64,000 bases of DNA from Rhodospirillales bacterium (lineage in GTDB: Bacteria; Pseudomonadota; Alphaproteobacteria; Rhodospirillales; WMHbin7), in NCBI GenBank assembly GCA_016214125.1, contig JACRPC010000042.1, positions 62,001-126,000 of the forward strand, in the 5' to 3' direction. Positions 27,575 to 53,080 of the stretch are shown piece by piece (position 1 is the first letter of the stretch; the number at the start of each line of letters is the position of its first letter). A program made the position numbers and the translations under genes. The notes under the pieces were generated by a model. That model searched no databases and was not told where the DNA came from. It saw nothing but the letters and a program-made list of their open reading frames with translations.

Positions 27575-28951
27575 ATGAGCAAGATCAAGGTTCTTGTTGT
27601 CATCGATCATGACATCATGATCCGCCATTTCCTCCATAGCGGCGTCTTTCGGACCCTGGCAATAACGCATGATGTGACGTTTGTCTTCCCGGACCCCGCC
27701 ACCAGCCGCCGCGTGACCCTGGATGTCAAACAGCTCAACCTGCCGGGCGACATTCTGCATCTTCCCATCGACACGCAGCGGTCGGCTATCTGGAACAAGC
27801 TGAATGCCGTTTCGCGGTTTCGCTGGCGTCCCGGCGCGCATCACGCCGCCATGCGGAAAATCGTCTTGGATGGAATCGGCCCCAAACTCGCCCGACAATA
27901 TGCTTGGCTTGGGCTGCCGGGAATTTTCACCCTCTTCCGCCACCGTGCGCGGTCGCGCCTGAAGCCGCCGAACCGCCCGATGGCCGCGCTGCTCGACCGC
28001 GTCAGGCCGGACGTGGTGATCCATCCGACCGTTCTCTACGGGCCCTATGTTCAAGATTTGCTGCTGGAATGCAAACGGCGAGGCATCCCCCTGGTCTACG
28101 TCATGAATTCCTGGGACAACATCGTCACGAAATCCCTCATGGATATGAATCTCGATTGGCTTCTCGTCTGGGGCGAGCAGACCCGACAGCACGCCCTCCG
28201 CTATATGAAGGCCAATCCCAAGAAGGTCGTGTCCTTCGGCGCCGCGCAGTTCGACGTCTATCGCGATCCGCCCGCCGTGCAGAGGCGGGATTTTTTCGCC
28301 GAGCATGGCATCGACCCTTCCCTCCGACTGGTTCTTTATGCTGGGTCGAACATCATCGCTGACGAGCACAAGCACCTCGTCATGCTGGACGCGGCCATTC
28401 ACGACGGAAGACTGGCCAACTGCGCGATCCTCTATCGGCCGCATCCCTGGGGGATCACGGCGGACATGGCCAAGCGCATTCTGGCGCACCCCTGGCGCTC
28501 CGTTTTTCTCGACAATTCGTTGCGCCCACACATGGAGCGGGTCGCCGGAAACCCCGATGTCGTGGCCTATCCCGACTACCGGACGACGCGCGATGTGCTG
28601 AACAGTGTCGATGCCGTGATTTCACCGCTCTCGACAATTATCTTAGAGGCGATGATTTGCGGCAAACCACCAATCTGCTTCCATCCGGTCAACGATGACG
28701 CGCCCTACTACGATCAACTGGCACCCCTCGCCCATTTCAAGGAAATTTACGACTTGCCGGAAGTGCTAAAGGCCTACGGCGACAACGAGTTGATTCCCCG
28801 CGCGGCGGATCTGCTGACTTCGCTTGAGAGGCCGGGAATTGCCGAAGAGCAGCGCCAGGCCAGCAAGTTCTTCGTCGATCTGCATGACGCGCCCTATGGC
28901 GAGAGGCTGGTTCTGTTCGTCGAAGGCTTGGTCGGCTACGCTCCCTTATGA
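27575..28951 (+). CDS. GT-B-like glycosyl/glycerophosphotransferase family protein
   Basis: A 458-residue protein from ATG 27575. It has a GT-B fold look: an N-terminal Rossmann-like half beginning IKVLVVIDHDIMIRHFL, and a C-terminal half with LVLYAGSN, ILYRPHPWG and SPLSTIILEAMICGKPPI. The last motif resembles the CDP-glycerol glycerophosphotransferase and capsule synthase group. It is followed in ATGA overlap by the NeuB gene, so it may transfer the nonulosonic acid or another residue made downstream. The family assignment is by motif only. Confidence 0.6.
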   Translation: MSKIKVLVVIDHDIMIRHFLHSGVFRTLAITHDVTFVFPDPATSRRVTLDVKQLNLPGDILHLPIDTQRSAIWNKLNAVSRFRWRPGAHHAAMRKIVLDGIGPKLARQYAWLGLPGIFTLFRHRARSRLKPPNRPMAALLDRVRPDVVIHPTVLYGPYVQDLLLECKRRGIPLVYVMNSWDNIVTKSLMDMNLDWLLVWGEQTRQHALRYMKANPKKVVSFGAAQFDVYRDPPAVQRRDFFAEHGIDPSLRLVLYAGSNIIADEHKHLVMLDAAIHDGRLANCAILYRPHPWGITADMAKRILAHPWRSVFLDNSLRPHMERVAGNPDVVAYPDYRTTRDVLNSVDAVISPLSTIILEAMICGKPPICFHPVNDDAPYYDQLAPLAHFKEIYDLPEVLKAYGDNELIPRAADLLTSLERPGIAEEQRQASKFFVDLHDAPYGERLVLFVEGLVGYAPL

Positions 28952-29976
28952 GTCAAGACTTTCCCAGCGTGATCGAAATCGCCGGGCGCGCCATCGGCCC
29001 CGGAGCCCCCGTCTTCATCATCGCGGAGGCGGGCGTTGCCCATTTCGGCGATCCGGCAAAGGCCGATGCGTTGGTCGATCTCGCCGCCGAGGGCGGAGCC
29101 GACGCCTTCAAAACGCAGGCCTTTGCCACGGATCGCCTGATTGCGTCGTCCTCCCCCGAGTGGCGCGACCGCTTGCGGTCCAAGGAGGTCGGCTTTTCCT
29201 TTCTTGAGCGAATGCATGAGCGCTGCAAGATACGGGGCCTCACATTCCTCTGCACGGCCCACGATGAGACGGCGCTCGACTGGGTGGCGCGCCTCAATCC
29301 TCCCGCTTGCAAGATCGGCTCCGGCGAACGCGGCAACTTGCCGTTTCTTAAGAAAATTGCCGCCTTGGGCAAGCCGGTCCTCCTCTCGACGGGCATGCAT
29401 GAACGCGCCCATGTTGAGCAGTCCCTTGACGCCTTGCGCAGCGCGGGCTGCCGCGAACTCGCTCTGCTCCACTGCGTCACCAGCTATCCCACGCCCAACG
29501 AGCAGGTGGGCTTGCGGGCGATGAGCGCCTTGTCTCGCCTGTTTCCCGGCCCGGTCGGCTATTCCGACCACACAGCAGGTCACCAGGCGGTCCTCTGCGC
29601 CGTGGCGATGGGGGCCAGCTTGATCGAAAAACACATCACCTTGGACTTCAACGTCCCGAACGCCCAGGACTGGAAGGTCTCTTGCGGACCTCGCGACTTC
29701 CCGCAATTTGTAAAATCGATCCGCGAGGTGGAGGCCAGCCTGGGCCGCGCCGAGCTGATCATTCAACCCTGCGAGAGGCCAGCGTTGGATTGGGCGCTGA
29801 AGTCGCTTGTCGCCGCGAGAGATTTGGCTGCGGGAACGGTTCTCAGCCGCGACATGCTGGAAGCCAAGCGCCCAGGGCGCGGCATCGCGCCGGCCGAGCT
29901 GGATCAGGTGATTGGCAGACATCTGCTCACCCCCCTGATGGCGGACGGCGCCTTGACATGGGACATCCTGGCGTGA
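28948..29976 (+). CDS. neuB: N-acetylneuraminate/legionaminate synthase-like (NeuB family)
   Basis: A 342-residue NeuB homologue that condenses PEP with a six-carbon HexNAc to make a nonulosonic acid. The TIM barrel has FIIAEAGVAHFGD, DAFKTQAF, KIGSGERGNLPFL, and the two metal-binding histidines H208 (GYSDHT) and H229 (IEKHITLD), with the same 21-residue spacing as H215/H236 of the meningococcal enzyme. A SAF-type antifreeze-like domain (LVAARDLAAGTVLSRDML) ends the protein. NeuC and NeuA homologues follow at once. Whether the product is sialic, legionaminic or pseudaminic acid cannot be decided by eye. Confidence 0.88.
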   Translation: MSQDFPSVIEIAGRAIGPGAPVFIIAEAGVAHFGDPAKADALVDLAAEGGADAFKTQAFATDRLIASSSPEWRDRLRSKEVGFSFLERMHERCKIRGLTFLCTAHDETALDWVARLNPPACKIGSGERGNLPFLKKIAALGKPVLLSTGMHERAHVEQSLDALRSAGCRELALLHCVTSYPTPNEQVGLRAMSALSRLFPGPVGYSDHTAGHQAVLCAVAMGASLIEKHITLDFNVPNAQDWKVSCGPRDFPQFVKSIREVEASLGRAELIIQPCERPALDWALKSLVAARDLAAGTVLSRDMLEAKRPGRGIAPAELDQVIGRHLLTPLMADGALTWDILA

Positions 29977-31864: not shown

Positions 31865-33910
31865 ATGTCCCATCCCGTCTTCCTGGCTGACCTGACCTAC
31901 ACGCAGCATTCCTTGCAGTCGGAAATCATTCCGCACGCCATCGGCTGCGTGGGCGCGGTCGCCCAGAGCCGCCTGGGCGGCGCCGTTTCCATCTCGCTTT
32001 TCAAGCGTCCCGAAAAGCTGGCCGCCGCACTTGAACATCAGCAGCCCAAAATTGTGGCGTTTTCCTCCTATGCCTGGAATTTCCGCCTCTCTTACCGTTT
32101 TGCCGCCGCGATCAAGCAGAGCCGTCCCGGAACCGTGACGATCTTTGGCGGTCCCAACTATCCAGGCGAAGCCGAACGCCAAGCTGAGTTCCTTCGTGCG
32201 CACCCGGCGATTGATTTTTTCGTCGTCAAGGAAGGAGAACTGCCTTTCGCCAATCTGGCGGCGGCCCTCGTCGCAAATGACTTCCGTCTCGACCAAGAGT
32301 ACGACATCCCTTCCGTTCACTATTTCGATAAGAGCGCCATGTCCGTGCGCTTGCCCGCCCTTGAGACGCGCCTGCCTGATCTTGCCGCCATCCCTTCGCC
32401 CTACTTATCGGGCCAGCTGGATGAATTTATCGACGATGGCTTCCAACCGATCATCCAGACCAATCGAGGCTGCCCATTTTCCTGTACCTTCTGCGTCGAA
32501 GGCGAGGGCTATTACAGCCGGGTGGTCAAAAAGCCGAGATCAAGGATCGAAGACGAGCTCCATTATATTGGTCAGCGCATGGCGCCCCGGGTCGCCCAGG
32601 GCAAGCGTGCGGATTTGTTCATCGCCGATTCCAATTTCGGCATGTTCGCCGAGGATATCGAGACCTGCCACGCGCTTCGCGACTGTCAAGACAAGTACGA
32701 CTGGCCGCAATTCATCAGCGTCGCCACCGGCAAGAATCAGAAGGAGCGGGTGATCGAGGCGGCCCGCCTTGTTCGTGGCGCCTTGCGGCTTTCCGGCTCG
32801 GTCCAGTCCTTGGATGAGGAGGTGCTGGACAAGATCAAGCGGCGCAATGTCGCCGCCAGCCAGTTGCTGGAGATTGCCCAGATGGGCGGCGAGCTTGGCG
32901 CCAACACCTATTCCGAACTTATCCTCGCCCTGCCCGGTCAGACCGTTGCTAGTTACGAGGAAACCGTGGCGCAGCTCCTGGAAATGGGATTCAACAACGT
33001 TGAAACCTATACTTTGATGCTCCTTTATGGAACGGAAATGGAGAGTGCCGAACAGCGGACGCTTTTTGGTCTAAGAACCAAATTCCGCGTCATTCCAAGG
33101 TGCTTTGGGTATTATGACGTTCTGGGCCAGCCGGTTTGCGTAGGGGAAATCGAGGAAGTCGTCATCGCCACCCGGGACATGTCTTACGACGAGTACATCT
33201 CGTGCCGCAAGTTCGCTCTGCTCGTCACCCTGTTTCACAATGATGGTTATTTTGATCTTGGCCTGCGCCTCCTAAAACAATCCGGAACTCCCGTCTTTGA
33301 CGCCATCAAGGCCGTTTCCAGGTCCATAGAAGCATCCGTTCTCATTTCGTATTTTAGCCGTTTTGCCCAGGATACCCAGGATGAATTATGGGATCAGGCA
33401 ACCGGACTTGAAGCCTCTTTGAGGGACCCAGAGACCATCCAGCGCTATATTTCTGGAGAACTGGGCAACAATATTCTTTACCGCTACAAGTCGCTCGCCA
33501 TGGTCGAGGCGCCCCAGGCTCTGAGCCAGACCTTCGAGGCCGCCATCGTCTCGTCATGGGAAGCGCGTCACGGAGCGATGAATGCCGATCAAAGGGGGTT
33601 CGTCGCCGAGCTGATGGCGTACTCCACCTGCCGGATGCAAAATCTGTTTCATGACCGCGAGGCGGAGCCGCAGCTCGTGACGGGTTGGAATTTCGAAGAA
33701 ATCCTTGATCAAGGGTTGTTTTTGCACATCGGCACAAGCGTTTGGCCCGGACCCGTAAAGCGGTTGGCCTTCGTCCACGATCACGAGCAGAAGCGCGTCA
33801 TCCATTGGCTGCTGGACACCTATGGCTCTGACGAGCGCGGCCTTACACGACTGGTCACGCGATGCAATCTGAAACAGCTTCTTCGTAAACCCGCCTTCGC
33901 GGCCGCCTAG
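31865..33910 (+). CDS. B12-binding-domain radical SAM protein
   Basis: A 681-residue protein with a B12-type Rossmann domain (about 1-170; KIVAFSSYAWNFRLSYRFA, TIFGGPNYPG) before a radical SAM barrel. The iron-sulfur cysteines are C203, C207 and C210 (RGCPFSCTFC). The long C-terminal part (about 400-681) matches nothing I know. The classic DxHxxG cobalamin-binding motif is not visible, so actual B12 binding is doubtful. It lies between the NeuBCA trio and UDP-sulfoquinovose synthase, which points to a sugar or glycan modification such as C-methylation or a radical rearrangement. Reaction unknown. Confidence 0.8.
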   Translation: MSHPVFLADLTYTQHSLQSEIIPHAIGCVGAVAQSRLGGAVSISLFKRPEKLAAALEHQQPKIVAFSSYAWNFRLSYRFAAAIKQSRPGTVTIFGGPNYPGEAERQAEFLRAHPAIDFFVVKEGELPFANLAAALVANDFRLDQEYDIPSVHYFDKSAMSVRLPALETRLPDLAAIPSPYLSGQLDEFIDDGFQPIIQTNRGCPFSCTFCVEGEGYYSRVVKKPRSRIEDELHYIGQRMAPRVAQGKRADLFIADSNFGMFAEDIETCHALRDCQDKYDWPQFISVATGKNQKERVIEAARLVRGALRLSGSVQSLDEEVLDKIKRRNVAASQLLEIAQMGGELGANTYSELILALPGQTVASYEETVAQLLEMGFNNVETYTLMLLYGTEMESAEQRTLFGLRTKFRVIPRCFGYYDVLGQPVCVGEIEEVVIATRDMSYDEYISCRKFALLVTLFHNDGYFDLGLRLLKQSGTPVFDAIKAVSRSIEASVLISYFSRFAQDTQDELWDQATGLEASLRDPETIQRYISGELGNNILYRYKSLAMVEAPQALSQTFEAAIVSSWEARHGAMNADQRGFVAELMAYSTCRMQNLFHDREAEPQLVTGWNFEEILDQGLFLHIGTSVWPGPVKRLAFVHDHEQKRVIHWLLDTYGSDERGLTRLVTRCNLKQLLRKPAFAAA

Positions 33911-33976: not shown

Positions 33977-35131
33977 ATGAAAATTCTCGTTCTGGGCGGC
34001 GACGGTTATCTCGGATGGCCGACGGCAATGTATTTTTCGCGGCTGGGCCATGATGTCATGGCCGTCGACAACTTCGTCAAGAGGCGCATTGAGATCGAAG
34101 AGGGAATCGAGCCGCTGGAGCCCCTGCTCACGCTCCATCGCCGCATTGCGCTCTGGGAGGCGACGACCGGCCACAAGATCAGGCTGGCGGTGGGCGATCT
34201 CTTGAATCATCGCATGGTGTATGACCTGCTTGAGCATTTCACGCCGGACGCCATCATTCATTATGCCGAGCAGCCCTCTGCGCCCTATTCGATGGAAAGC
34301 CGCGACAAGGCGGTGTTCACGCAGCACAACAATGTGATCGGTACGCTCAATCTTCTGTTCGCCATGAAGCGCCACTGCCCCGAGGCGCATCTGATCAAGT
34401 TGGGCACGATGGGAGAATACGGCACACCCAACATCGATATCGAAGAGGGCTACATTACCATCACCCACAATGGGCGCGTCGATACGCTGCCCTTCCCCAA
34501 ACAGCCGGGCAGTTTTTACCATCTCTCGAAGGTTCACGATTCCGCCAATATCCTTTTCGCGTGCCGCACTTGGGGCCTTCGGGCGACCGATCTCAACCAG
34601 GGCGTGGTTTACGGCATCGAGACGGATGAGACGAAGCTTAAACCTGGTCTGCACACCGCCTTCCATTACGATGCGGTTTTTGGAACGGTGCTGAACCGCT
34701 TTTGCGTTCAGGCCGTGGCGGGGGCGCCGCTGACCGTCTACGGATCGGGCGGACAGACTCGCGGCTTCTTGAATATTCGCGACACCATTCAGTGCGTCGA
34801 TCTGGCGACGCAAAACCCGGCCGATATCGGGGAATGCCGCGTCTATAACCAGCTAACCGAGGTCTTCTCGGTCTTGGAACTCACCAAGCTTGTCGAGGTG
34901 GCGGGCAAGAAGCTGGGCATTGAGGTAAGAATCGATCATATTGCCAATCCGCGCGTCGAGAAAGAAGAGCACTATTACAATCCCAAACACACCAAGTTGA
35001 TCGACCTGGGGCTGAAGCCGCACCTTCTCTCCGACGTTCTCGTTGAGCAGATGATCGGGCATATCCAGACGGTGCGCGATCAGATCAACCTTTCGACCTT
35101 CAAGCCCACCATCAAGTGGCGCGAGAAATAG
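33977..35131 (+). CDS. sqdB: UDP-sulfoquinovose synthase (SQD1/SqdB family)
   Basis: A 384-residue SDR that looks strongly like plant SQD1, which makes UDP-sulfoquinovose from UDP-glucose and sulfite. Stretches such as LGTMGEYGTPNIDIEEGYI, FYHLSKVHDSANI, ATDLNQGVVYG and EEHYYNPKHTKL recall the SQD1 family. The catalytic residues T144, Y181 and K185 keep the spacing of T145/Y182/K186 in Arabidopsis SQD1, and GGDGYLG binds NAD. No sulfolipid glycosyltransferase (SqdX/SqdD type) is recognisable next to it; it sits among surface-glycan genes. A sulfoquinovose residue in the glycan is therefore plausible, as is a stray sulfolipid gene. Confidence 0.87.
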   Translation: MKILVLGGDGYLGWPTAMYFSRLGHDVMAVDNFVKRRIEIEEGIEPLEPLLTLHRRIALWEATTGHKIRLAVGDLLNHRMVYDLLEHFTPDAIIHYAEQPSAPYSMESRDKAVFTQHNNVIGTLNLLFAMKRHCPEAHLIKLGTMGEYGTPNIDIEEGYITITHNGRVDTLPFPKQPGSFYHLSKVHDSANILFACRTWGLRATDLNQGVVYGIETDETKLKPGLHTAFHYDAVFGTVLNRFCVQAVAGAPLTVYGSGGQTRGFLNIRDTIQCVDLATQNPADIGECRVYNQLTEVFSVLELTKLVEVAGKKLGIEVRIDHIANPRVEKEEHYYNPKHTKLIDLGLKPHLLSDVLVEQMIGHIQTVRDQINLSTFKPTIKWREK

Positions 35132-35142
35132 GGATTTCCGGG

Positions 35143-36360
35143 TTGAGCGCACATCCTGGCGAGAATCAAGGAACCCTGTTCGGGCTGCCCGCCGAGGTTC
35201 GCTTCTGCAAGCGGTGCGTGATCTCGAATCAGCGCCCTTCGGCTGCGGTCGAGTTCCGCAATCGCAACGCCAAAGATGTGATCGCCTTCGATGAGGAAGG
35301 CGTTTGCTCCGCTTGCCGCTTCCACGAATTGAAATATGGCGGCATCGATTGGGACGAGCGCCAACGGATGCTGCTCGATCTGCTGGACCGTCACCGCAGC
35401 CGCGATGGCGGCTACGACATCATCGTTCCCGGCTCGGGCGGCAAGGACAGCGTTTACGTCGCCCATGTGCTGAAACACAAATACGGCATGCACCCGCTGA
35501 CGGTGACGTGGCCGCCGCATCTTTATACGGACATTGGGCGGCGCAATTTCGACGCCTGGCTGGATACGGGCTTCGACAATGTGACGTTCCACCCCAACGG
35601 CAAGGTGCACCGCGAGCTGACCCGCTTCGCCTTTCTTAACCTCCTGCATCCCTTCCAGCCCTTCATCCTGGGCCAAAAGCAGATCGGCCCTAAGATGGCG
35701 CTGAAATACGGCGTGAAACTTGTGATGTATGGAGAGAGTCAGGCCGAAGGTGGCACCAATATGCAAGAAGGCCTGCGGCCTGCGATGAATCCGAAATATT
35801 ATTCGATTCCGAAGGCCGAGCGTTCAAGCCTGCGCGTCGGCGGCTTGGGATTGGACGAGCTGTTGGCGCGGGGCCTAACTTCCTCGGACCTCCTGCCCTA
35901 TGTCCCCGCCGCCTTGGAGGATGTTCTGGAGGCCGCAGTCGAGGTCCACCATATGGGTTTCTATGAGCGCTGGGTTCCCCAGGAGAAGTATTACTACGCC
36001 GCCGAGCATTGCGGGTTTAAGCCGAACCCGGAGCGCAGCGAGGGTACCTATTCGAAATATTCCAGCCTAGACGACAAGATCGACGGCTTTCACTATTACA
36101 CAACCTACATCAAATTCGGCATTGGCCGGGCGACCTACGACGCGGCCCAGGAAATCCGCAATGGCCACCTGACGCGCGACGAGGGAATAGCCCTGGTCAA
36201 TCGCTATGACGGCGAGTTTCCGAAAAAGTATTTTCCAGAATTCCTCGACTACATCGGCATCGACGAGGATACGTTCTGGAAAAGCATCGACGCCTGCCGC
36301 TCCCCCCACTTATGGTGTAAAGAGGGGAATGACTGGGTGCTGCGTCACAAGGTCGCGTGA
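35143..36360 (+). CDS. N-acetyl sugar amidotransferase 1 (WbpG/PseA family)
   Basis: About 405 residues. A PP-loop ATPase that turns a sugar acetamido group into an acetamidino group using ammonia from HisH/HisF partners. Two CxxC pairs (CKRC, CSAC) form a zinc knuckle at the N-terminus, SGGKDS at 98-103 is the PP-loop, and YSKYSSLDDKIDGFHYY is a late family motif. I prefer TTG 35143 because it avoids a 16-bp overlap; GTG 35116 is the alternative and adds nine residues. The HisF-like gene follows in GTGA overlap, so the partners are coupled. The sequence between motifs is longer than in the other two copies. Confidence 0.85.
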   Translation: MSAHPGENQGTLFGLPAEVRFCKRCVISNQRPSAAVEFRNRNAKDVIAFDEEGVCSACRFHELKYGGIDWDERQRMLLDLLDRHRSRDGGYDIIVPGSGGKDSVYVAHVLKHKYGMHPLTVTWPPHLYTDIGRRNFDAWLDTGFDNVTFHPNGKVHRELTRFAFLNLLHPFQPFILGQKQIGPKMALKYGVKLVMYGESQAEGGTNMQEGLRPAMNPKYYSIPKAERSSLRVGGLGLDELLARGLTSSDLLPYVPAALEDVLEAAVEVHHMGFYERWVPQEKYYYAAEHCGFKPNPERSEGTYSKYSSLDDKIDGFHYYTTYIKFGIGRATYDAAQEIRNGHLTRDEGIALVNRYDGEFPKKYFPEFLDYIGIDEDTFWKSIDACRSPHLWCKEGNDWVLRHKVA

Positions 36361-37145
36361 GCCCGATTCCCATTATTCGCCCATCGCCTCTCCTTCGTAT
36401 CGCAGCCCGGCTGGACGTGAAGGGCCCTAACGTCGTCAAGGGCATTCACTTTGAAGGGTTGCGCGTTGTCGGCAAGCCCGGCGAGCTTTCGGCGAAATAT
36501 CAGGAGCAGGGGATCGATGAAATCATCTTCATCGATACCGTCGCCTCGCTCTATGGCCGCAACACCATCCTCGACGCCGTGCGCGAGGCGGCGCACGGTG
36601 TTTTCGTGCCGATGACGGTGGGCGGCGGCATTCGCACGCTAGACGACATCAAGAGCGTCTTGCGCGCCGGGGCGGATAAGGTGGCCATCAATACGGCCGC
36701 CACCAGCCGCCCCGCCTTCCTCTCGGAAGCCGCTCGGGCCTTTGGCAGCCAATGCGTCGTGCTTTCCGTCGAGGCGAAGCGCCAGGGCGGCGCCGGCTGG
36801 GAGGCCTATTCCGACAATGGCCGCGAGCCCACGGGCCGCAATGTTCTCGACTGGGTCACCGAAGCGGAAGCACTCGGCGTTGGGGAGATTCTGCTTACCT
36901 CCATCGACCGGGATGGGACCCGGTCAGGTTTCGACATCGAGCTTCTCGAGGCGGTGCGCGCCCGCACGACGGTGCCGCTCGTCGCCTGCGGAGGGGCGGG
37001 AGCGGCTGGGCATGCGCTTCGGCTGCTGGAGCGCGTCAGCGTCGAATCGCTCGCCTGCGCCTCGTTATTCCACTACGGCCTGTGCCGCGTCGAAGACGTT
37101 AAGATCCAGCTTGGCAAGGCCGGCTACCGCACGCGGCCGGTTTAG
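36357..37145 (+). CDS. HisF-like barrel 1 (glycosyl-amidation associated)
   Basis: A 262-residue TIM barrel of the HisF family. In imidazole-glycerol-phosphate synthase, D11 and D130 (Thermotoga numbering) are catalytic. Here the first is kept (D20 in RLDVKG) but the second is Glu (E139 in LSVEAKR). The ammonia-gate residues R5, E46, K99 and E167 are all present by alignment (GIDEIIF, GADKVAIN, GVGEILL). With an amidotransferase just before it, it most likely channels ammonia for sugar amidation, as proposed for HisF2 next to WbpG in Pseudomonas. GTG 36357 is in GTGA overlap. Confidence 0.82.
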   Translation: MSPIPIIRPSPLLRIAARLDVKGPNVVKGIHFEGLRVVGKPGELSAKYQEQGIDEIIFIDTVASLYGRNTILDAVREAAHGVFVPMTVGGGIRTLDDIKSVLRAGADKVAINTAATSRPAFLSEAARAFGSQCVVLSVEAKRQGGAGWEAYSDNGREPTGRNVLDWVTEAEALGVGEILLTSIDRDGTRSGFDIELLEAVRARTTVPLVACGGAGAAGHALRLLERVSVESLACASLFHYGLCRVEDVKIQLGKAGYRTRPV

Positions 37146-37147
37146 GC

Positions 37148-38257
37148 ATGGCCTCTTCCGGCTCCCGGCGCTTCCTCTACCTGTTCAAGGCGGGCCGGCG
37201 CGAACGCCTTTCCGGCCCGGACGAGTTCCCGAGCGATTTCTTTTACGGCTATATCGAGCTTCGGGCGGGCGGGTACCCAGTCGACTATCTAGACGAGCGC
37301 GATCTGGCGCCGGAAGGCCAGACACCGCATTTCAGCCGGCTGGTGGCAAGGCTTGCCGCGCGCTTCGCACCATGGCTGCCCTTCGCCCTGGGCTATTGCT
37401 TTGTGCTGGGCCGTTTTCAAGCAAGGCGGCGGCTTAACCAGAGCCGCGCGCTGATCGCCACCACGAACACCTTCGGCTATTGCCTGGCCATCTTGCGGCG
37501 GCTGGGACTGATCCGGGTGCCCGTGTACTTCATCGCAATGGGCGCCATTCCGCTTGAGCTGTCCGGGTGGCAAAGGCGGATTCTCAGGTGGCTGCTTGGC
37601 GCGACCCGGCTGGTGGTCATCTCGGAAGGCGAGCGCGGCGAGCTGTCGCGGGAATTGCCGGGACAGACCATTCACCTTCTGCCCTTCGGTGTCGATGAGA
37701 CATTCTGGGCGCCTGGCCCTTGCGAGCCATCCTCCCCTTTCGCCCTGGCGATTGGCAACGACGGCCATCGCGACTGGGCGGCGCTGGTCGCCGCGTGGCG
37801 CCCTGAGTTTCCGCTGCTGAAAATCCTTACCTCGCTTCCGGTGCCCGGCTCTGCGCCGAATATCGAGGTGGTGCGCGCAGATTGGCGGCACCAGCACCTG
37901 TCCGACGCGCAGATTCGCAACCTCGTGCGCCAGGCTCTTTTTGTCGTCCTGCCGCTCCGCCAAACGGTTCAGCCTTCCGGTCAAAGCGTCTGTCTTCAAG
38001 CGATGTCCTGCGCCAAGGCAGTGATTTTAAGCAGCATTCTTGGGCTCTGGGATCGCCAGGCCTTGCGCCACGAGGAAACCTGCTTGCTCGTTCCCCCTGC
38101 CGATGCCGGCGCCTTGACCCTGGCTGTGCGGCGGTTGCTCGGCGATGAATCACTGCGCCGCAAAATTGGCGAAGCCGCGCGCCAGGAAATCGTTTCCCGC
38201 CTGAATGCCCTGGGAATGTCCCAGCAGATGCGGCGCATATTGGAGGACGATCCATGA
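37148..38257 (+). CDS. Glycosyltransferase (GT-B, family 4-like)
   Basis: A 369-residue GT-B protein placed between the HisF-like and HisH-like genes. The N-terminal half is hydrophobic and basic (FQARRRLNQSRALIATTN), and the C-terminal half shows LLPFGVDETFW, FALAIGNDGHRDW, PSGQSVCLQAMSCAKAVI and EETCLLVPPADAGAL, corresponding to donor-binding and E-x7-E-like regions of GT4. The first glutamate of the pair is replaced (Q in CLQAMS), so it may be a divergent member. ATGA overlap with the HisH-like gene couples it to sugar amidation, and it may transfer the amidated residue. Confidence 0.72.
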   Translation: MASSGSRRFLYLFKAGRRERLSGPDEFPSDFFYGYIELRAGGYPVDYLDERDLAPEGQTPHFSRLVARLAARFAPWLPFALGYCFVLGRFQARRRLNQSRALIATTNTFGYCLAILRRLGLIRVPVYFIAMGAIPLELSGWQRRILRWLLGATRLVVISEGERGELSRELPGQTIHLLPFGVDETFWAPGPCEPSSPFALAIGNDGHRDWAALVAAWRPEFPLLKILTSLPVPGSAPNIEVVRADWRHQHLSDAQIRNLVRQALFVVLPLRQTVQPSGQSVCLQAMSCAKAVILSSILGLWDRQALRHEETCLLVPPADAGALTLAVRRLLGDESLRRKIGEAARQEIVSRLNALGMSQQMRRILEDDP

Positions 38258-38871
38258 TCATCGGCATCGTGGATTACGGCATGGGCAATCTGGCCTCGGT
38301 TGCAGGGGCCATCGAACGGCTTGGCCATACGCCCCTGGTCACGACGCTGCGAGATGAGCTGGACAAAGCGGATCGCCTTATCCTGCCCGGTGTCGGAGCT
38401 TTCGCCGACGCTATGGATGAGCTGCGCCGGCGCAATCTTGTCGAAACGCTTCACGATCTTGTCTTTGAGCGCCAAAGGCCTCTTCTTGGCATCTGTCTCG
38501 GCGCCCAGCTTCTTACCCTCGAAAGCGACGAGTTCGGCCACAACAGGGGCCTGGGCTGGCTTAAGGCGCGCACGCTGCGCCTTGCGCCTTCCGATCCCGC
38601 CCTGCGCGTGCCGCATGTCGGCTGGAACGATCTGTTTCCCCTGCAAGACAGCCCCTTGTTGAGGGATGTGCCGCCGGGTAGCCTGTTCTACTACGTCCAC
38701 AGCTATTGCATCAGGGCGGACGAACCGGGGATCGTTGTCGGCGAGTGCGATTACGGCGGACGCTTTGCCGCGGTCCTTCAGTCGGGCAACATTTGCGCCA
38801 CGCAGTTCCATCCGGAAAAGAGCCAGAAGCCGGGATTGCAGATTCTGCGCAACTTCATCGAGCGGACCTGA
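38254..38871 (+). CDS. hisH: HisH-like glutamine amidotransferase 1
   Basis: A 205-residue class I glutaminase. LPGVGAF forms the oxyanion strand, GICLGAQ carries the nucleophile C81, and QFHPEKSQ carries H186 and E188, so the triad is intact. It should hydrolyse glutamine and pass ammonia through a HisF partner. It is separated from the HisF-like gene at 38878 by only six bases. Because no other histidine gene is nearby, a role in sugar amidation, as for HisH2 of the Pseudomonas O5 cluster, is much more likely than histidine synthesis. Confidence 0.87.
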   Translation: MIIGIVDYGMGNLASVAGAIERLGHTPLVTTLRDELDKADRLILPGVGAFADAMDELRRRNLVETLHDLVFERQRPLLGICLGAQLLTLESDEFGHNRGLGWLKARTLRLAPSDPALRVPHVGWNDLFPLQDSPLLRDVPPGSLFYYVHSYCIRADEPGIVVGECDYGGRFAAVLQSGNICATQFHPEKSQKPGLQILRNFIERT

Positions 38872-38877
38872 CGGCGC

Positions 38878-39636
38878 ATGGTCCGTAAACGTCTGGTGAC
38901 CGTGCTGACGTTCCAAGACGGGGTGTTGTTTCGCACCAAGATGTTTCAGCCGGACTACCGCTACACGCAGAATTTTGTCGATGCCTCCCTGATCGACGAG
39001 ATCGTGGCGCTCGATATTTCCCGGAGCGTGCCAGGGAGGCCGGCCGGCCGGCGAGACGAATTTGCCGCCGTCATTGACCGGTTGGCGCGTAGGTGTTTCG
39101 TGCCGCTTGCCACAGGGGGCGGGATTAGAACAATTGAGGATGTCGTCTGGCATATGAAGCGCGGCGCGGACAAGGTTATCGTCAATTCGGGGGCGATCGA
39201 CGACCCTTCTCTGATTGGAAGGATCGCGCAGCAATATGGCTCTCAATGCGTCGTCGTCTCCATCGACGCCAAGTCGCGCCCGGCTGGTGGCTGGGAAGTG
39301 TTCGCCGATTGTGGCCAAAGGGCTACGGGGCTTGACGTCACCTCCTGGGCGAAGCGCGCCCAGGAGGAAGGGGCGGGCGAGGTTTTTCTTACGTCTATTG
39401 ACCGTGACGGCTCGCTGGAGGGCTATGACCTTGACCTCTCGCGCCGTGTCGCGGATTCCTTGACCATACCGGTTCTGATTTGCGGCGGCGCGGGCAACTG
39501 GCAGCATTTCGTTGATGGCGTCCTGATCGGCGGCGCCTCGGCGGTGTGCACGGCCAACATCTACCACTTCACCGAAGCCAGCGTGCAGAGCGCCAAGAAA
39601 TTCATGAGCAGCGCCGGGATACCGGTGCGAATCTGA
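38878..39636 (+). CDS. HisF-like barrel 2 (glycosyl-amidation associated, WbuZ-like)
   Basis: A 252-residue barrel. The position of catalytic D11 is Thr here (T11 in VLTFQDG), while D130 is kept at residue 130 (VSIDAKS). The gate residues R5, E46-equivalent (LIDEIVALD), K99-equivalent (GADKVIVN) and E167-equivalent (GAGEVFL) are retained. So cyclase chemistry is unlikely, but ammonia passage from HisH remains possible. It pairs naturally with the HisH-like gene directly upstream. A 59-bp gap separates it from the following methyltransferase. Confidence 0.82.
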   Translation: MVRKRLVTVLTFQDGVLFRTKMFQPDYRYTQNFVDASLIDEIVALDISRSVPGRPAGRRDEFAAVIDRLARRCFVPLATGGGIRTIEDVVWHMKRGADKVIVNSGAIDDPSLIGRIAQQYGSQCVVVSIDAKSRPAGGWEVFADCGQRATGLDVTSWAKRAQEEGAGEVFLTSIDRDGSLEGYDLDLSRRVADSLTIPVLICGGAGNWQHFVDGVLIGGASAVCTANIYHFTEASVQSAKKFMSSAGIPVRI

Positions 39637-39695
39637 CGGCCTTCATCCTCACGGATACCCTTCCAGTCCCCAATTCGCAGCAAGCGGAGTAGGCC

Positions 39696-40613
39696 ATGCC
39701 GGTTACGGAGCAATTTTCAAATTTTCCCTGCGATGTTTGTGGCTCCGACGACGCCGCGGAAATCGATGTTGCGCGGGGCTATACAAACAACCAGCCGCTG
39801 CATGTTTGCAAAGCTTGCGGCTTCGTCTATGTTCGCTCTCGCCGGTCGGCGGAGCGCATCGCCCAGGCCTGGAGCAAGGAAATCTATCAGCACGCCTACA
39901 CGGCTCATGTCCCCGCGGTGAAGGCGCGCCAGACATTCGTCGCCGATTTTTTGGACTCAGCGACAGGTCTCAAGGGCAAGAGTCTCTGCGACATCGGAGG
40001 CGGCGAGGGGCAGTTCCTCGGCATCGCTCGCGACCAGTACGGTGCCAACGTGTTTTGCATTGAGCCTTCGCCGGTCAATGGCAAGGCGCTCGCGGCACAG
40101 GGTATCGACCATTTTGTGGGCACGATTGAAGATTATGCCGCCGCCAACCGGCCGCGGAAGTTCGACGTGGTTACCATCATGTGGACGCTGGAGAATTGCC
40201 AGTCCTGCAGGGCGATGCTGGTGGCGGCGTACCACATCGTCAAGGAGGGCGGATTGATTTGCGTCGCCACCGGCAGCCGCATACTCGTGCCGTTCAAGAA
40301 GCCCCTGAATTACTATCTAAGCGACAACGCTGCCGACACGCACGCCTTTCGGTTCTCGGCCAATTCCCTGCGGAATCTGCTTGCGGCTGTGGGCTTTTCC
40401 TTTCACGGCGTCAACCGCTATATCGACAACGACATTTTGTGCATGGTGGCAAAGAAGAACCCGCAGGCCTCCCAGGAAGACCTGCACCGCGACGATTGGC
40501 GCGAGATCGCTGATTTCTTCCGCCGCTGGGACAAAGAAACCCGGGATCATTACTGGAATGGCGAGGCGGTCGATACGCGGGTCGTGCCCGAGGCTGGGCA
40601 GAAGGCTAGGTGA
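39696..40613 (+). CDS. Zinc-ribbon class I SAM methyltransferase
   Basis: A 305-residue protein. The N-terminal CDVCGSDD and CKACGFVYV pairs form a zinc-binding ribbon, followed by SLCDIGGGEGQFLGIA as the SAM loop, FDVVTIMWTLENC and KEGGLICVATGS. This layout is shared with many sugar methyltransferases in O-antigen clusters, including those at 43299 and 58089. The C-terminal tail (about 250-305) is charged and specific. It lies between two amidation modules, so an N- or O-methylation of the amidino sugar would fit; this is only a guess. Confidence 0.8.
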   Translation: MPVTEQFSNFPCDVCGSDDAAEIDVARGYTNNQPLHVCKACGFVYVRSRRSAERIAQAWSKEIYQHAYTAHVPAVKARQTFVADFLDSATGLKGKSLCDIGGGEGQFLGIARDQYGANVFCIEPSPVNGKALAAQGIDHFVGTIEDYAAANRPRKFDVVTIMWTLENCQSCRAMLVAAYHIVKEGGLICVATGSRILVPFKKPLNYYLSDNAADTHAFRFSANSLRNLLAAVGFSFHGVNRYIDNDILCMVAKKNPQASQEDLHRDDWREIADFFRRWDKETRDHYWNGEAVDTRVVPEAGQKAR

Positions 40614-40649
40614 GGTGGTTCACGCCGTGCGGACTTCACGAGGCGCAGT

Positions 40650-41279
40650 TTGATCGCCATCATCGACTACACCGTCGGCAATCTTCGCTCGGTTGCCAAT
40701 GCCTTTGAGCATCTTGGCGTTCAGGCCTTCATTGCGAACAGGCCGGATGAGCTTCGAGAGGCGAGCGCCATCGTACTGCCTGGTGTTGGGGCGTTTGCCA
40801 GCGGCATGTCTCACTTGAAGCGTCTTGGTTTTGATGAGGCGCTTGAGCGGGAGGTGAGGGACGGCGGCAAGCCCTTCCTTGGCATTTGCCTGGGTATGCA
40901 GCTCCTGGCCACGCGGGGCATGGAACATGGCGCGCATGCCGGGCTGAATTGGGTTTCGGGAACGGTGGAACTTCTTCGTGTGCCCGAGAACAGCCCGCAA
41001 TTGCGCATCCCCCACATTGGCTGGAACGACGTGCAAATGGTGAGCGAGGGTGGTCTTTTTCGAGGTTTCACAGCGTCTGAGGATTTTTATTTCGTCCACT
41101 CCTATGTTCTCAAACCGAACGATCCGGCGGTCGTCGCAGGCACATGTTTGCACAGCGAGCCTTTCGCGGCGGCAATTGAGACCGCAAATATCTGTGCCGT
41201 TCAATTTCATCCGGAAAAAAGCCATCGTGCGGGGCTCCAGCTCTTGCGCAACTGGGCGGAAATGACCGGGCAATGCTGA
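40650..41279 (+). CDS. hisH: HisH-like glutamine amidotransferase 2
   Basis: A 209-residue class I glutaminase with an intact triad: C80 in GICLGMQ, H187 and E189 in QFHPEKSH, and LPGVGAFASG for the oxyanion site. The start is TTG 40650 with a GAGG box about six bases ahead. The HisF-like gene at 41273 starts seven bases before its stop, a tight coupling. It resembles the copy at 38254 but differs throughout, so the two are old paralogues and probably serve different barrels. Confidence 0.86.
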   Translation: MIAIIDYTVGNLRSVANAFEHLGVQAFIANRPDELREASAIVLPGVGAFASGMSHLKRLGFDEALEREVRDGGKPFLGICLGMQLLATRGMEHGAHAGLNWVSGTVELLRVPENSPQLRIPHIGWNDVQMVSEGGLFRGFTASEDFYFVHSYVLKPNDPAVVAGTCLHSEPFAAAIETANICAVQFHPEKSHRAGLQLLRNWAEMTGQC

Positions 41280-42082
41280 AACACCGCTTGATTCCCGTAT
41301 TACTGCTCAAGAACGGCGCCCTGGTGCGCAGCAGCCGCTTTTCCTTTCATCAGGTGATTGGCGATCCCGTCAACAAGGTCGAGCGCTTCAACGAGTGGAG
41401 CGTGGACGAGCTAATCTACTTGGACATCAGCCGCGAGGCGGTTTACAACCGCAGCCGGTCCGACATTCGTGTCGAGCAGCTTTCGGACCCGCTCGCCATC
41501 TTGCGGCGCGTCAGCAAGACCTGCTTCATGCCTCTGACCTGGGGCGGCAGATTGCGGACGGTCGATGACATGCGGGCTTGCTTCCTGCATGGCGCCGATA
41601 AGGTAACCTTGAACTCTCAAGCCGTGCGCACGCCCGATCTCATTGTGCAGGGCGCTAAGGCCTTTGGCAGCCAGGCCGTTCTCGTCAGCATTGATGTAAA
41701 ACGTATCGACGGCGCCTATCGGGTCTTCGTCGATTGCGGAGGCGCCGACAGCGGCCGGGAGGCCCTGGAATGGGCGCGTGAGGCGGAATCTCGCGGCGCG
41801 GGCGAGATCTTGTTGCAGGAAATCGATCGCGACGGCATGGCCACGGGCTATGGCTTGGATTTAATTCATGACATCTCACGCGCCGTCTCCATTCCGGTTA
41901 TCGCCTGCAGTGGTGTCGGTAAGTACGAAGATTTCGCGAAGGGCATTGAGGCGGGCGCTTCCGCCGTGGCCGCCGCCAACATCTTTCACTTCAAGGAACT
42001 CTCGGACAGGAACGCCAAGCGCGCCATGGCTAAGGCCCGATGCAATGTCCGCCTCAGCAACATACCGGGGAAACCGTTGTGA
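41273..42082 (+). CDS. HisF-like barrel 3 (glycosyl-amidation associated, WbuZ-like)
   Basis: A 269-residue barrel with a short insertion near residues 55-70. D11 is replaced by Leu (L11 in VLLLKNG), and D130 is kept as D141 (VSIDVKR). The gate residues are all present (R5; SVDELIYLD; GADKVTLN; GAGEILL). It keeps what is needed to receive ammonia from the HisH partner upstream and to hand it on, here to the amidotransferase that begins in GTGA overlap with its stop. The HisH-HisF-amidotransferase order makes this the most complete of the amidation modules. Confidence 0.83.
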   Translation: MLKHRLIPVLLLKNGALVRSSRFSFHQVIGDPVNKVERFNEWSVDELIYLDISREAVYNRSRSDIRVEQLSDPLAILRRVSKTCFMPLTWGGRLRTVDDMRACFLHGADKVTLNSQAVRTPDLIVQGAKAFGSQAVLVSIDVKRIDGAYRVFVDCGGADSGREALEWAREAESRGAGEILLQEIDRDGMATGYGLDLIHDISRAVSIPVIACSGVGKYEDFAKGIEAGASAVAAANIFHFKELSDRNAKRAMAKARCNVRLSNIPGKPL

Positions 42083-43299
42083 AGGTTCAGTACTGCCAGA
42101 GATGCGTCTACCCCTCCAGTTCCGCCGTCCGGCTTGAGATCGACGCCAATGGTGTCTGCACGGGCTGTCGCGTGGCGGAAGACCGACCCGTCATCGACTG
42201 GGAAAGCCGGTGGCAGATGTTCAAGGATCTGACTAAGGAATACAGCTCACAAGGCAATTATGATCTGATCATCCCCGTTTCCGGCGGCAAGGACAGCTAC
42301 TACCAAACCCATCTGGCCGTGAAGGAACTTGGGCTTAAGCCCTTGCTCGTCACCTATCACGGCAACAACTATCTGCCGGAGGGCGAGTACAATCTGCACC
42401 GCATGCGTGATGTCTTCGATTGCGATCACATCATCTTTCGCCCCTCCGTCGATAGCCTGATCAAGATGAACCGGCTGGGCTTCCGCGTTCAAGGCGACAT
42501 GAACTGGCACGCCCATTGCGGCATCGCCACTGTCCCCTTCCAGGTGGCCGTCCGCTACAAGGTGCCGCTTGTCATGTGGGGAGAAATTGGCTGGATCGAT
42601 CTGGGCGGCATGTTCACGCTGCACGATTTTCCCGAGTTCACTTTCAAGAACCGGGTCGAGCACGACCTTCGCGGCTTTGATTGGCATGACTTCACCGATG
42701 AGGGGCTGGAGAAAATGGGCCGCCCCGAATGGAAGGAAGGGCTGACGGCGAAGGATTTGATGTGGGGCCGGTATCCCAGCGATGATGAGGTGGATGCGGT
42801 AGGGCTGCGCGGCATCTATATGGATTGCTACGTGCCCTGGGACGGCAACCACAATGCCGAAATTGCGCGCAAGCACTATGGCTGGAAGGGCTCGGATCAA
42901 GAGTTCGAGCGCACCTATCGCCGCTTCTCCAACCTGGACGACATGCATGAAAACGGCATCCATGACTATCTGAAGTTCATCAAGTTCGGCTATGGCCGCT
43001 GCTCGGACCACGCTACCAAGGATATCCGCACGGGCCGTATCACGCGTGATCAGGGCATTGAACTGGTCGCGCGCTATGATCATGTGAAGCCGCGCAAGGA
43101 TCTTGAGCGCTGGCTTGACTATGTCGGCATGACGGAGCGGGAGTTCGACATAACGTGCGACAGCTTCCGCGATCCCAGGGTCTGGTGGATCGAAGATGGC
43201 CAGTGGTGGAAGGACAATATCTGGGGCCAGCCCTCTTCCTACGGTTCCGTGCACTTGCCGCGCGAAAAATGGGCCGCCTATAGCCGTAAGAGCGCCTGA
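42079..43299 (+). CDS. N-acetyl sugar amidotransferase 2 (WbpG/PseA family)
   Basis: A 406-residue PP-loop protein from GTG 42079 (GTGA overlap). It has CQRC and CTGC zinc pairs, SGGKDS at 68-73, LVTYHGNNY and RFSNLDDMHENGIHDY. The last motif and the FIKFGYGR segment are shared with the other two copies. The middle part (about 170-260; HAHCGIATVPFQVAVRYK, WGEIGW) differs most, which suggests another sugar substrate. It forms a unit with the HisH-like and HisF-like genes at 40650 and 41273. The expected product is an acetamidino (amidino) sugar. Confidence 0.87.
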   Translation: MKVQYCQRCVYPSSSAVRLEIDANGVCTGCRVAEDRPVIDWESRWQMFKDLTKEYSSQGNYDLIIPVSGGKDSYYQTHLAVKELGLKPLLVTYHGNNYLPEGEYNLHRMRDVFDCDHIIFRPSVDSLIKMNRLGFRVQGDMNWHAHCGIATVPFQVAVRYKVPLVMWGEIGWIDLGGMFTLHDFPEFTFKNRVEHDLRGFDWHDFTDEGLEKMGRPEWKEGLTAKDLMWGRYPSDDEVDAVGLRGIYMDCYVPWDGNHNAEIARKHYGWKGSDQEFERTYRRFSNLDDMHENGIHDYLKFIKFGYGRCSDHATKDIRTGRITRDQGIELVARYDHVKPRKDLERWLDYVGMTEREFDITCDSFRDPRVWWIEDGQWWKDNIWGQPSSYGSVHLPREKWAAYSRKSA

Positions 43300-50825: not shown

Positions 50826-50977
50826 TCGACGCTCCTTGCTTCTTGCAGTTCTGCCTCTGCCACAATGCGGCGTCAAGTTGCCACTTAGCTTGACCCATAC
50901 ATTGGTTGATGGCCGGCCTGTATGGCATCACAATGCTTGGCCTGCAGCCCATCCCATCCAATAGGCGCCAAAACGAT
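50826..50977. promoter_or_regulatory. Divergent intergenic region (AsnB / amidotransferase 3)
   Basis: This 152-bp gap lies between divergently read genes, so it should carry promoters for both. A TTGACC at 50890-50895 resembles a -35 box, but I find no matching -10 at a usual spacing. The extreme left edge holds the AsnB ribosome binding site. Confidence 0.3.
50832..50837 (-). promoter_or_regulatory. Ribosome binding site of the minus-strand asnB
   Basis: On the minus strand AAGGAG stands six bases before ATG 50825. This fixes the start that gives the conserved MCGIAG end and rules out longer upstream starts. Confidence 0.6.
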
Positions 50978-52087
50978 ATGATTCGCTATTGCAAGACTTG
51001 CCTTATGCCCAATACGCGCCCGCGCATCGTTTTCTGCGAGGCGGGGATCTGCAACGCTTGCCGGAACGCCGAGGCGCGCCAGAAAATCGACTGGGCTGCC
51101 CGGCGGCAGGAGTTTCTTGAACTCGTCGCAGAGCACCGCAAGCCGGGGGCGCTCTATGACTGCGTCATTCCCTGGAGCGGCGGGAAGGATTCGTCCTACA
51201 TCGCCCACCGGATCAAGTTCGAGTTCGGCCTTAACCCGCTTCTCGTTACCTTCGCTCCTCTCATGCCGACCGACATTGGCATGAACAATCGCCGGGCGCT
51301 GCTGGAGCTTGGCTTTGACCATGTCTATGTCACGCCGAGTCCGAAGATCGGCCGCCATCTTGCCCAGCGCTTTTTCATCGAGCGCGGCAATCCGAAAGTG
51401 GGCTGGGATGCTGGCATCAACGCGGTCCCCGTGCAAGTGGCGGCGAATTACGATATACCGCTGATCTTCTACGCCGAACATGGCGAGTCGGAGTATGGCG
51501 GGCGCGTGCTCAAGCCGGATATGCTGAAATTCCGCGACTTCACTGAGGTCTTGGAACATCAAATCGGCGACGATCCCCGCAACTGGCTGGACGAGACGGT
51601 CACCGAGCGCGATCTGGCACCCTATCTCTATCCGCCGGCGGAGAAGCTTGAACGGGCGGACGTGAAGGCGCTTTATTTCGCTTACTTCTTCCCCTGGGAC
51701 GTCACTGAAAACTACCACTATATCAAGCAGAAGATCCCGTTCCAGCTGGCGCCCAATGGCCGCTCGGACGGCACCTTCACAGGGTATGACAGCTTGGACG
51801 ATAAGATCGACAATGTTTACTACTACCTTCAGTTCATCAAATTCGGCTTTGGGCGCGCCCTTCGCGACGCCTGCCGCCAGATCTATCGCGGCCGCCTGTC
51901 GCGTGAGGATGCCCTCAAGCACGTCCACAATTATGACGATGAGTTTCCGCACACCTACTTTAACGACGTTATCGACTATCTCGGCATGAACCGGGAGAAG
52001 TTCGACGCCGTCATTGACATGCACCGCAACGAAGAGATTTGGGGAAAATCGGGAAATGGCTGGGTCCTCCGTCATCCACCCGTTTAG
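50978..52087 (+). CDS. N-acetyl sugar amidotransferase 3 (WbpG/PseA family)
   Basis: A 369-residue PP-loop protein. ATG 50978 places the zinc pair YCKTC at residue 4, as in PseA and WbpG, and CNAC follows. SGGKDS is at 67-72, then FAPLMPTDIGMNNRRAL, FYAEHGESEYGG and YDSLDDKIDNVYYY. Of the three copies its motifs agree best with what I recall of WbpG/PseA. It has no HisH or HisF gene beside it; the divergent neighbour is AsnB, and the next + strand gene is a formyltransferase. It may borrow ammonia from the modules 10 kb upstream, or act on the sugar made by the genes that follow. Confidence 0.86.
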   Translation: MIRYCKTCLMPNTRPRIVFCEAGICNACRNAEARQKIDWAARRQEFLELVAEHRKPGALYDCVIPWSGGKDSSYIAHRIKFEFGLNPLLVTFAPLMPTDIGMNNRRALLELGFDHVYVTPSPKIGRHLAQRFFIERGNPKVGWDAGINAVPVQVAANYDIPLIFYAEHGESEYGGRVLKPDMLKFRDFTEVLEHQIGDDPRNWLDETVTERDLAPYLYPPAEKLERADVKALYFAYFFPWDVTENYHYIKQKIPFQLAPNGRSDGTFTGYDSLDDKIDNVYYYLQFIKFGFGRALRDACRQIYRGRLSREDALKHVHNYDDEFPHTYFNDVIDYLGMNREKFDAVIDMHRNEEIWGKSGNGWVLRHPPV

Positions 52088-52144: not shown

Positions 52145-53080
52145 ATGCGCATAATTTTCTTCGGCAAGGCGGATCGCGGGGCTTCTTGTCTAAGGGCCTT
52201 CATGGGATCAGGCATTGCGGTCGATGCGGTTGCGGTACAGGGCGGAGCCGACCCCTGCGCCGCCATCGCCCGCCAGCACGGCATCGACCTGCTTGAAATC
52301 GACGACCCGAACGCCCCGGCTACGCTTGAAGCGTTAAGGGCACGCAAGCCAGACCTCTTCGTTCTGGCCGGTTACGGCAAAATCCTGAAGCCTGAGATTA
52401 TTGCCGTTCCCAGCCGGATGACGATCAACCTGCATGCGGGTAAACTTCCCGAGTGCCGCGGCTCGTCTCCCCTTAACTGGGCTTTGATCCATGGCTGGCC
52501 TGAATTCTCTCTATCGGTTATTGCCGTCGATGCGGGTGTCGACAGCGGCGATATCCTGCTCTCGCGCAGCTTTCCTATTGCCCCCCGAGCCACGATCTGC
52601 GACCTTCACGCCACCGCGAACCAGCAATTTCCCGAGATGCTGGTCGAGGTCGTTAGGAGACTCATGGGTGGTTCGCTTGTCCGCACGCCTCAGGACAAGG
52701 CCAGGTCCGCCTATTACCCCCTCCGGTTTTCTGAGGACGGCGCCATACTCTGGGACATGCTGACCGCCGAGCAGATCGACCGCCGCGTCCGCGCCCTCAC
52801 GGCTCCCTACCCATGCGCCTTCACCCTTTTCAAGGGCCGCCGGGTGAAGCTGCTGGCGGCAGAACCCTCGGAGAGGCCGTTTTACGGCGAGCCTGGACGC
52901 ATCTACCGGATCGCACCGCAGGGTCTGCTCGTCTGCGCCTCCGACAAATCCCTTTGGATCACCGAGGCGGTTTTCGAGGATGATGGAACTCCGTTGAGGG
53001 GGACTGTGAAGAGATATGAGTGTCTTGCCACGGTGCGTGAGGCGGCTCTTCGCTTGTTGCAAGGTTCGGCCGCACCATGA
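52145..53080 (+). CDS. Sugar N-formyltransferase-like (methionyl-tRNA formyltransferase fold)
   Basis: A 311-residue protein using N10-formyl-tetrahydrofolate. The catalytic triad is visible as N95, H97 (TINLHAGKLPECRG) and D133 (VDAGVDSGDIL), with the spacing of N102/H104/D140 in ArnA. The C-terminal part (about 205-311) is the OB-like region of FMT proteins. In glycan clusters such enzymes formylate an amino group on a nucleotide sugar. The nearby DegT aminotransferase (55121) could produce that amine. Its stop overlaps the NeuB-like start as ATGA. A true Met-tRNA role is unlikely in this setting. Confidence 0.82.
   Translation: MRIIFFGKADRGASCLRAFMGSGIAVDAVAVQGGADPCAAIARQHGIDLLEIDDPNAPATLEALRARKPDLFVLAGYGKILKPEIIAVPSRMTINLHAGKLPECRGSSPLNWALIHGWPEFSLSVIAVDAGVDSGDILLSRSFPIAPRATICDLHATANQQFPEMLVEVVRRLMGGSLVRTPQDKARSAYYPLRFSEDGAILWDMLTAEQIDRRVRALTAPYPCAFTLFKGRRVKLLAAEPSERPFYGEPGRIYRIAPQGLLVCASDKSLWITEAVFEDDGTPLRGTVKRYECLATVREAALRLLQGSAAP

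Follow-up and report, generated by a model that had tools for sequence, protein, structure and literature searches.

Three genes for HisF-like barrels (F1, F2 and F3) lie within the window, the whole stretch of 64,000 nucleotides from a Rhodospirillales bacterium (contig JACRPC010000042.1) that was analysed here, and an intact canonical hisH–hisA–hisF set, whose own HisF carries C9, D11 and D130, is present elsewhere in the genome on contig C28. What do the additional barrels do? A sequence-only reading of the window had proposed that they preserved the ammonia delivery of HisF and released its cyclase chemistry. The barrels belong to a wider cluster on contig C39 that comprises four WbuX-type amidotransferases, four HisF paralogues and three HisH proteins, surrounded by nonulosonate genes that include three NeuB homologues, one NeuC and one PseF-like gene (Table 1). 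All four amidotransferases (at positions 28794, 97200, 104088 and 112984 in contig numbering) exceeded the curated cut-off, WbuX proteins scoring 343, 303 and 334 bits against the TIGR03573 threshold of 203.2, and their SGGKDS PP-loop and the cysteine pairs of the tetracysteine motif are invariant. The most likely start of WbuX2 is the GTG at 42079, which overlaps the F3 stop codon; the longest open reading frame begins at 42040.

Table 1. Features of the cluster. Positions are those of the window unless a locus is named; HisF residues follow Thermotoga maritima HisF (TmHisF) numbering.
Feature	Assignment	Position	Strand	Remarks
F1	HisF-like barrel, clade A	36357..37145	+	R9, D11, E130; intact gate R5/E46/K99/E167
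F2	HisF-like barrel, clade B, T11 subclade	38878..39636	+	V9, T11, D130; intact gate
F3	HisF-like barrel, clade B, L11	41273..42082	+	V9, L11, D130; intact gate
F4	HisF paralogue, clade A	L009:14119-14880 (contig C39, 22 kb upstream of window)		D11 and D130 both kept
H1	HisH-type glutaminase	38254..38871	+	Cys-His-Glu triad intact; clade-B type; F2 cognate
H2	HisH-type glutaminase	40650..41279	+	triad intact; clade-B type; F3 cognate
WbuX1	N-acetyl sugar amidotransferase, clade A	35116..36360	+	PP-loop SGGKDS, CxxC...CxxC; 4-nt overlap with F1
WbuX2	N-acetyl sugar amidotransferase, clade B	42079..43299	+	orthologues fused to F3 orthologue in five genomes
WbuX4	N-acetyl sugar amidotransferase, clade B	50906..52087	+	phylogenetic partner of F2 and H1, 11 kb away

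The three NeuB-like nonulosonate synthases of the cluster (window 28948-29976, window 53077-54093 and L009:50-985) suggest that more than one nonulosonic acid may be made. Two further genes were recorded: window 31865-33910, amid the nonulosonate genes, encodes a B12-dependent radical SAM protein that resembles KedN5-type C-methyltransferases at a score far below the cut-off, and window 33977-35131 encodes an NAD-dependent epimerase nearest to UDP-sulfoquinovose synthase (455 bits against a curated cut-off of 575).

To read the active sites of the barrels, we aligned F1–F3 with TmHisF and with the genome's own HisF. The three proteins are 39–44% identical to TmHisF, and the predicted models of F1 (mean pLDDT 94.7) and F3 (mean pLDDT 82.7) are (beta/alpha)8 barrels whose top PDB matches are HisF structures; the alignment is therefore sound and the residues are not misplaced. 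R5, E46, K99 and E167, which by analogy with T. maritima HisF we take to be the ammonia gate, are present in all three barrels, together with D11 and E130 in F1, T11 and D130 in F2, and L11 and D130 in F3, exactly as the sequence-only reading had assigned them (its D20, E139 and D141 fit the offsets). In TmHisF, D11 serves as the general acid and D130 as the general base (PMC11350729). Each window copy thus departs from the D11–D130 pair of a HisF cyclase (D130E in F1, D11T in F2, D11L in F3) and keeps its gate, and all three score below the TIGR00735 cut-off for the cyclase (264, 209 and 204 against 294.55 bits).

We then placed these states in a family survey. From 80 loci with WbuX relatives in species genomes, and from more loci of the same class and phylum, 191 HisF-like sequences were extracted: 47 true HisF, 101 members of a clade A that includes F1 and F4, and 43 members of a clade B that includes F2 and F3. 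Searches with WbuX1, WbuX2, F3 and F1 as seeds supplied part of the clades, and the percentages given here hold for this sample. C9, D11 and D130 occur in 47 of 47 true HisF. Every clade-A sequence that covers position 9 has arginine (97) or lysine (3) there; position 11 is Asp (97) or Glu (3), and position 130 is Glu in 81, Asp in 8, Gln in 6 and Ala, His or Val in 2 each, so that D130 is lost in 92% of the clade. Clade B has lost D11 in 100% of its members (Leu in 31, Thr in 6, Val and Ile in 2 each, Tyr and Phe in 1 each) and has D130 in 43 of 43. The gate is kept throughout both clades, with R5, E46 and E167 at 100% and K99 at 98–99%, the remainder being Arg. When 247 columns are ranked by conservation among the 144 paralogues, the four gate positions come 1st, 3rd, 14th and 8th, and D11 and D130 come 85th and 87th.

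The claim that all three copies lose a catalytic Asp describes the window correctly but does not extend to the cluster, where F4 carries both aspartates along with R9, S20, L23 and E176. Because F4 nevertheless groups with clade A, the Asp pair alone cannot identify the family, and Asp loss was rejected as its definition: both residues are present in F4, in its relatives and in a small number of clade-A members. The change at the catalytic pair is one of several, since residues 9, 20, 23 and 176 have also changed. Loop-1 residues are altered relative to true HisF. Clade A has L23 in 82%, E176 in 82% and K19 in 100% of its members; clade B keeps F23 but has G20 in just 23%. In TmHisF, F23A lowers kcat about 400-fold and G20A about 100-fold (PMC11350729), and K19 forms a bridge between D176 and the phosphate of the substrate (PMC8115485). 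Nearly every paralogue of the two clades has Ala, Ser or Cys in place of Leu222, which true HisF has without exception, and the phosphate-site glycines G81, G177 and G203 vary little or not at all. Position 9 lies in strand 1, where HisF has Cys and clade A has Arg or Lys, and its side chain probably faces into the barrel.

HisA, a barrel homologous to HisF but without ammonia chemistry, provides a control. Among 39 HisA sequences of the surveyed genomes, D11 and D130 are invariant and D176 is kept, as are G81, G177 and G203, and the gate is replaced, R5 by Ile or Asn, E46 by Trp, K99 by Arg and E167 by Ala. The paralogues and HisA are mirror images: HisA has the pair without the gate, the paralogues have the gate without the full pair, and HisF has both. 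The gate is thus not simply a fold requirement, because the HisA barrel does without all four residues. Preservation of ammonia delivery alongside loss of the cyclase therefore finds support in the kept gate and changed pair of 144 paralogues and in the opposite pattern of HisA, but "released" is not the right word for the chemistry: each clade strongly conserves its remaining Asp (D11 in 97% of clade A, D130 in 100% of clade B), which is therefore kept for something.

To count the losses, we used a tree of 96 rows from which positions 9, 11, 130 and 222 had been left out. Each clade is set apart by a single branch, clade A with SH-aLRT 99 and clade B with weak support (SH-aLRT 24; FastTree 0.83), and the tree requires a minimum of 2 changes at D11 and 3 at D130. 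F2 and F3 belong to one D11-loss lineage, and the Thr of F2 is common to five other genomes. Independent loss in each copy is ruled out by this tree; where the sequence-only reading saw a different route in each copy, there are two clade-wide states, which the window copies inherited. Clades A and B may or may not share a non-cyclase ancestor: a tree that groups them is not rejected (AU p 0.79), and Leu222 is lost in both.

The partners follow the same division. WbuX lies beside HisF or HisH in most of the 80 loci, across many phyla, and the WbuX tree separates A-linked from B-linked rows, misplacing none of the 124 that are labelled (support 0.969); one row is misplaced when HisH is split in the same way. 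Within clade B, F2, H1 and WbuX4 each cluster with loci L178, L217, L229 and L235 (support 0.995, 0.998 and 1.0), and L218 also falls into the F2 clade of the HisF tree and the WbuX4 clade of the WbuX tree. By these placements F2, H1 and WbuX4 are a cognate trio, although WbuX4 is encoded 11 kb downstream of the other two. F3, H2 and WbuX2 make up the other clade-B set. Clade A includes F4, WbuX3 and H3, and also F1 and WbuX1. The only clade-A HisH, H3, is about 56 kb upstream of F1 and none is nearby, so that F1 would share H3 or run on free ammonium. H1 was considered as a clade-A glutaminase for F1 and rejected, as it groups with the clade-B HisH of the T11 subclade. The HisH partners keep Cys84-His178-Glu180, and H141 and the hinge residues Y138 and K/R181 are kept in both clades with rare exceptions.

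Natural fusions join the same proteins. In-frame HisF–WbuX fusions were found in five genomes, G008, G297, G384, G470 and G606 (loci L132, L134, L225, L214 and L254); all are orthologous to F3 plus WbuX2, their linker is partly conserved, and one of these genomes (G470, in which the L214 fusion is 693 aa long) comes from the organism family to which the window genome belongs. Two further candidates, G552 and G526, were rejected as separate genes. HisF–HisH fusions occur in two clade-A loci, L049:8512-9990 and L084:5665-7218, with HisF first, the opposite of the order in yeast His7. Since proteins encoded as fusions usually touch, the order glutaminase–barrel–amidotransferase is likely, and the HisF–WbuX fusions support a direct hand-over of ammonia, which would pass from the barrel to WbuX.

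On the basis of the residue states, the retained gate, the congruent HisF, HisH and WbuX trees, the cognate trios and the HisF–WbuX fusions, we propose, with a probability of roughly 0.85, that F1, F2 and F3 are non-cyclising ammonia conduits between a HisH-type glutaminase and a WbuX (NASAT) amidotransferase, WbuX being the evident candidate acceptor. The glutaminase would bind the barrel at its gate face, with WbuX docked on the former catalytic face. Glutamine would be hydrolysed by HisH, the ammonia would pass the R5/E46/K99/E167 gate and then the barrel, and WbuX would convert the acetamido group of a sugar, probably one destined for the cell surface, to an acetamidino group in an ATP-dependent reaction. 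In place of PrFAR, docking of WbuX or a WbuX-bound substrate might switch on HisH. Clade A would have given up cyclisation via the general base D130, usually also via the loop-1 residue Phe23, and placed Arg or Lys at position 9, and clade B would have given it up via the general acid D11. A more specific form of the proposal is tentative and rather doubtful: that the barrels are pure conduits with two states of the catalytic pair (base lost and a buried Arg/Lys9 in A, acid lost in B), each clade dedicated to its own WbuX clade, and that the glutaminase, at a distance of 25 angstroms, is now activated by docked WbuX and not by PrFAR. Arg9 could serve as a second gate. Several points count against a role as conduits, namely the missing clade-A HisH near F1, the Arg9 conserved inside the clade-A barrel and the kept phosphate-site glycines, with which the barrels may still bind a phosphorylated ligand.

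In another explanation the paralogues are enzymes of a new chemistry whose retained Asp and phosphate-binding glycines act on a phosphorylated or nucleotide-sugar substrate, the ammonia being used inside the barrel. Conservation of the remaining Asp at 97–100% in each clade would fit such enzymes, as would the nearly invariant G81, G177 and G203 and, in clade A, the universal K19. The glycines may serve the fold, however, since HisA has them too; an ATP-dependent amidotransferase active site is already supplied by WbuX, to which HisF is tied by fusions and phylogeny, and we regard a new chemistry as unlikely.

It is very improbable that the gate is kept for folding or barrel stability alone and that the paralogues are duplicates with a passive role or in decay: clusters of salt bridges can stabilise barrels, but the homologous HisA lacks all four residues, and the many strongly conserved columns, the overlapping partner genes and the intact HisH triads do not fit decay. 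That at least one copy backs up histidine biosynthesis is hardly credible. F4 would be the candidate with its D11 and D130, or F1 with D11, F23 and D176, but the genome holds the complete canonical his set on C28, and F4 has R9, S20, L23 and E176, where Ala at position 20 or 23 cuts the kcat of TmHisF about 100-fold or more (PMC11350729).

Allostery and ammonia tunnelling are both studied on HisF–HisH as a model. In the paralogues the two jobs of this barrel come apart, and together with HisA they are natural controls that distinguish residues for tunnelling from residues for chemistry. For annotation, a HisF match in a glycan locus is not equivalent to a histidine gene; such barrels can be recognised by a residue rule, with position 9 occupied by Arg or Lys, or position 11 by a residue that is not acidic, and the clades predict which HisF, HisH and WbuX pair up in multi-copy clusters.

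The kind of system is already known, as WbuXYZ and HisH2/HisF2. F1–F3 fit it in the broad sense: they are present in addition to the true hisF, and their saccharide locus links them to a HisH-like protein and to an amidotransferase of the WbuX type. The ammonia-supplier reading is not new because the NCBIfam names (WbuZ, AglZ/HisF2) already speak of glycosyl amidation and acetamidino modification. A literature search that covered few subscription papers turned up no earlier description of the two-clade residue rule, of Arg9 as a signature, of HisA as the mirror image or of HisF–WbuX fusions. WbuX–WbuY–WbuZ of E. coli O145 (TIGR03573, TIGR03572) likewise combines a PP-loop N-acetyl sugar amidotransferase with neighbouring HisH-like and HisF-like proteins in a surface-glycan locus, but F1–F3 score below the WbuZ cut-off (256, 226 and 252 against 299.7 bits for TIGR03572) and the cluster here has four copies of WbuX, four of HisF and three of HisH. 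P. aeruginosa HisF2 presumably has Leu at position 11. The P. aeruginosa WbpG/HisH2/HisF2 system and the AglZ/HisF2 family (NF038364) have the same proposed job, ammonia for acetamidino formation; F1–F3 fall below the family's cut-off (186, 176 and 225 against 310 bits). Roles of WbpG and WbuX have been published (PMC10607449). The closest solved relative of WbuX1 is LpNASAT of Legionella pneumophila (PDB 8WEX, 484 bits), which shares the tetracysteine zinc motif and the PP-loop; the paper on LpNASAT leaves HisH and HisF unmentioned, and no HisF2-type barrel structure is among the PDB matches. T. maritima HisF–HisH resembles the proteins described here in fold, in gate residues and in a glutaminase partner with an intact triad and hinge residues, whereas the paralogues differ from it in one replaced catalytic Asp, a changed position 9, the exchange of Leu222 for Ala, Ser or Cys and an altered loop 1.
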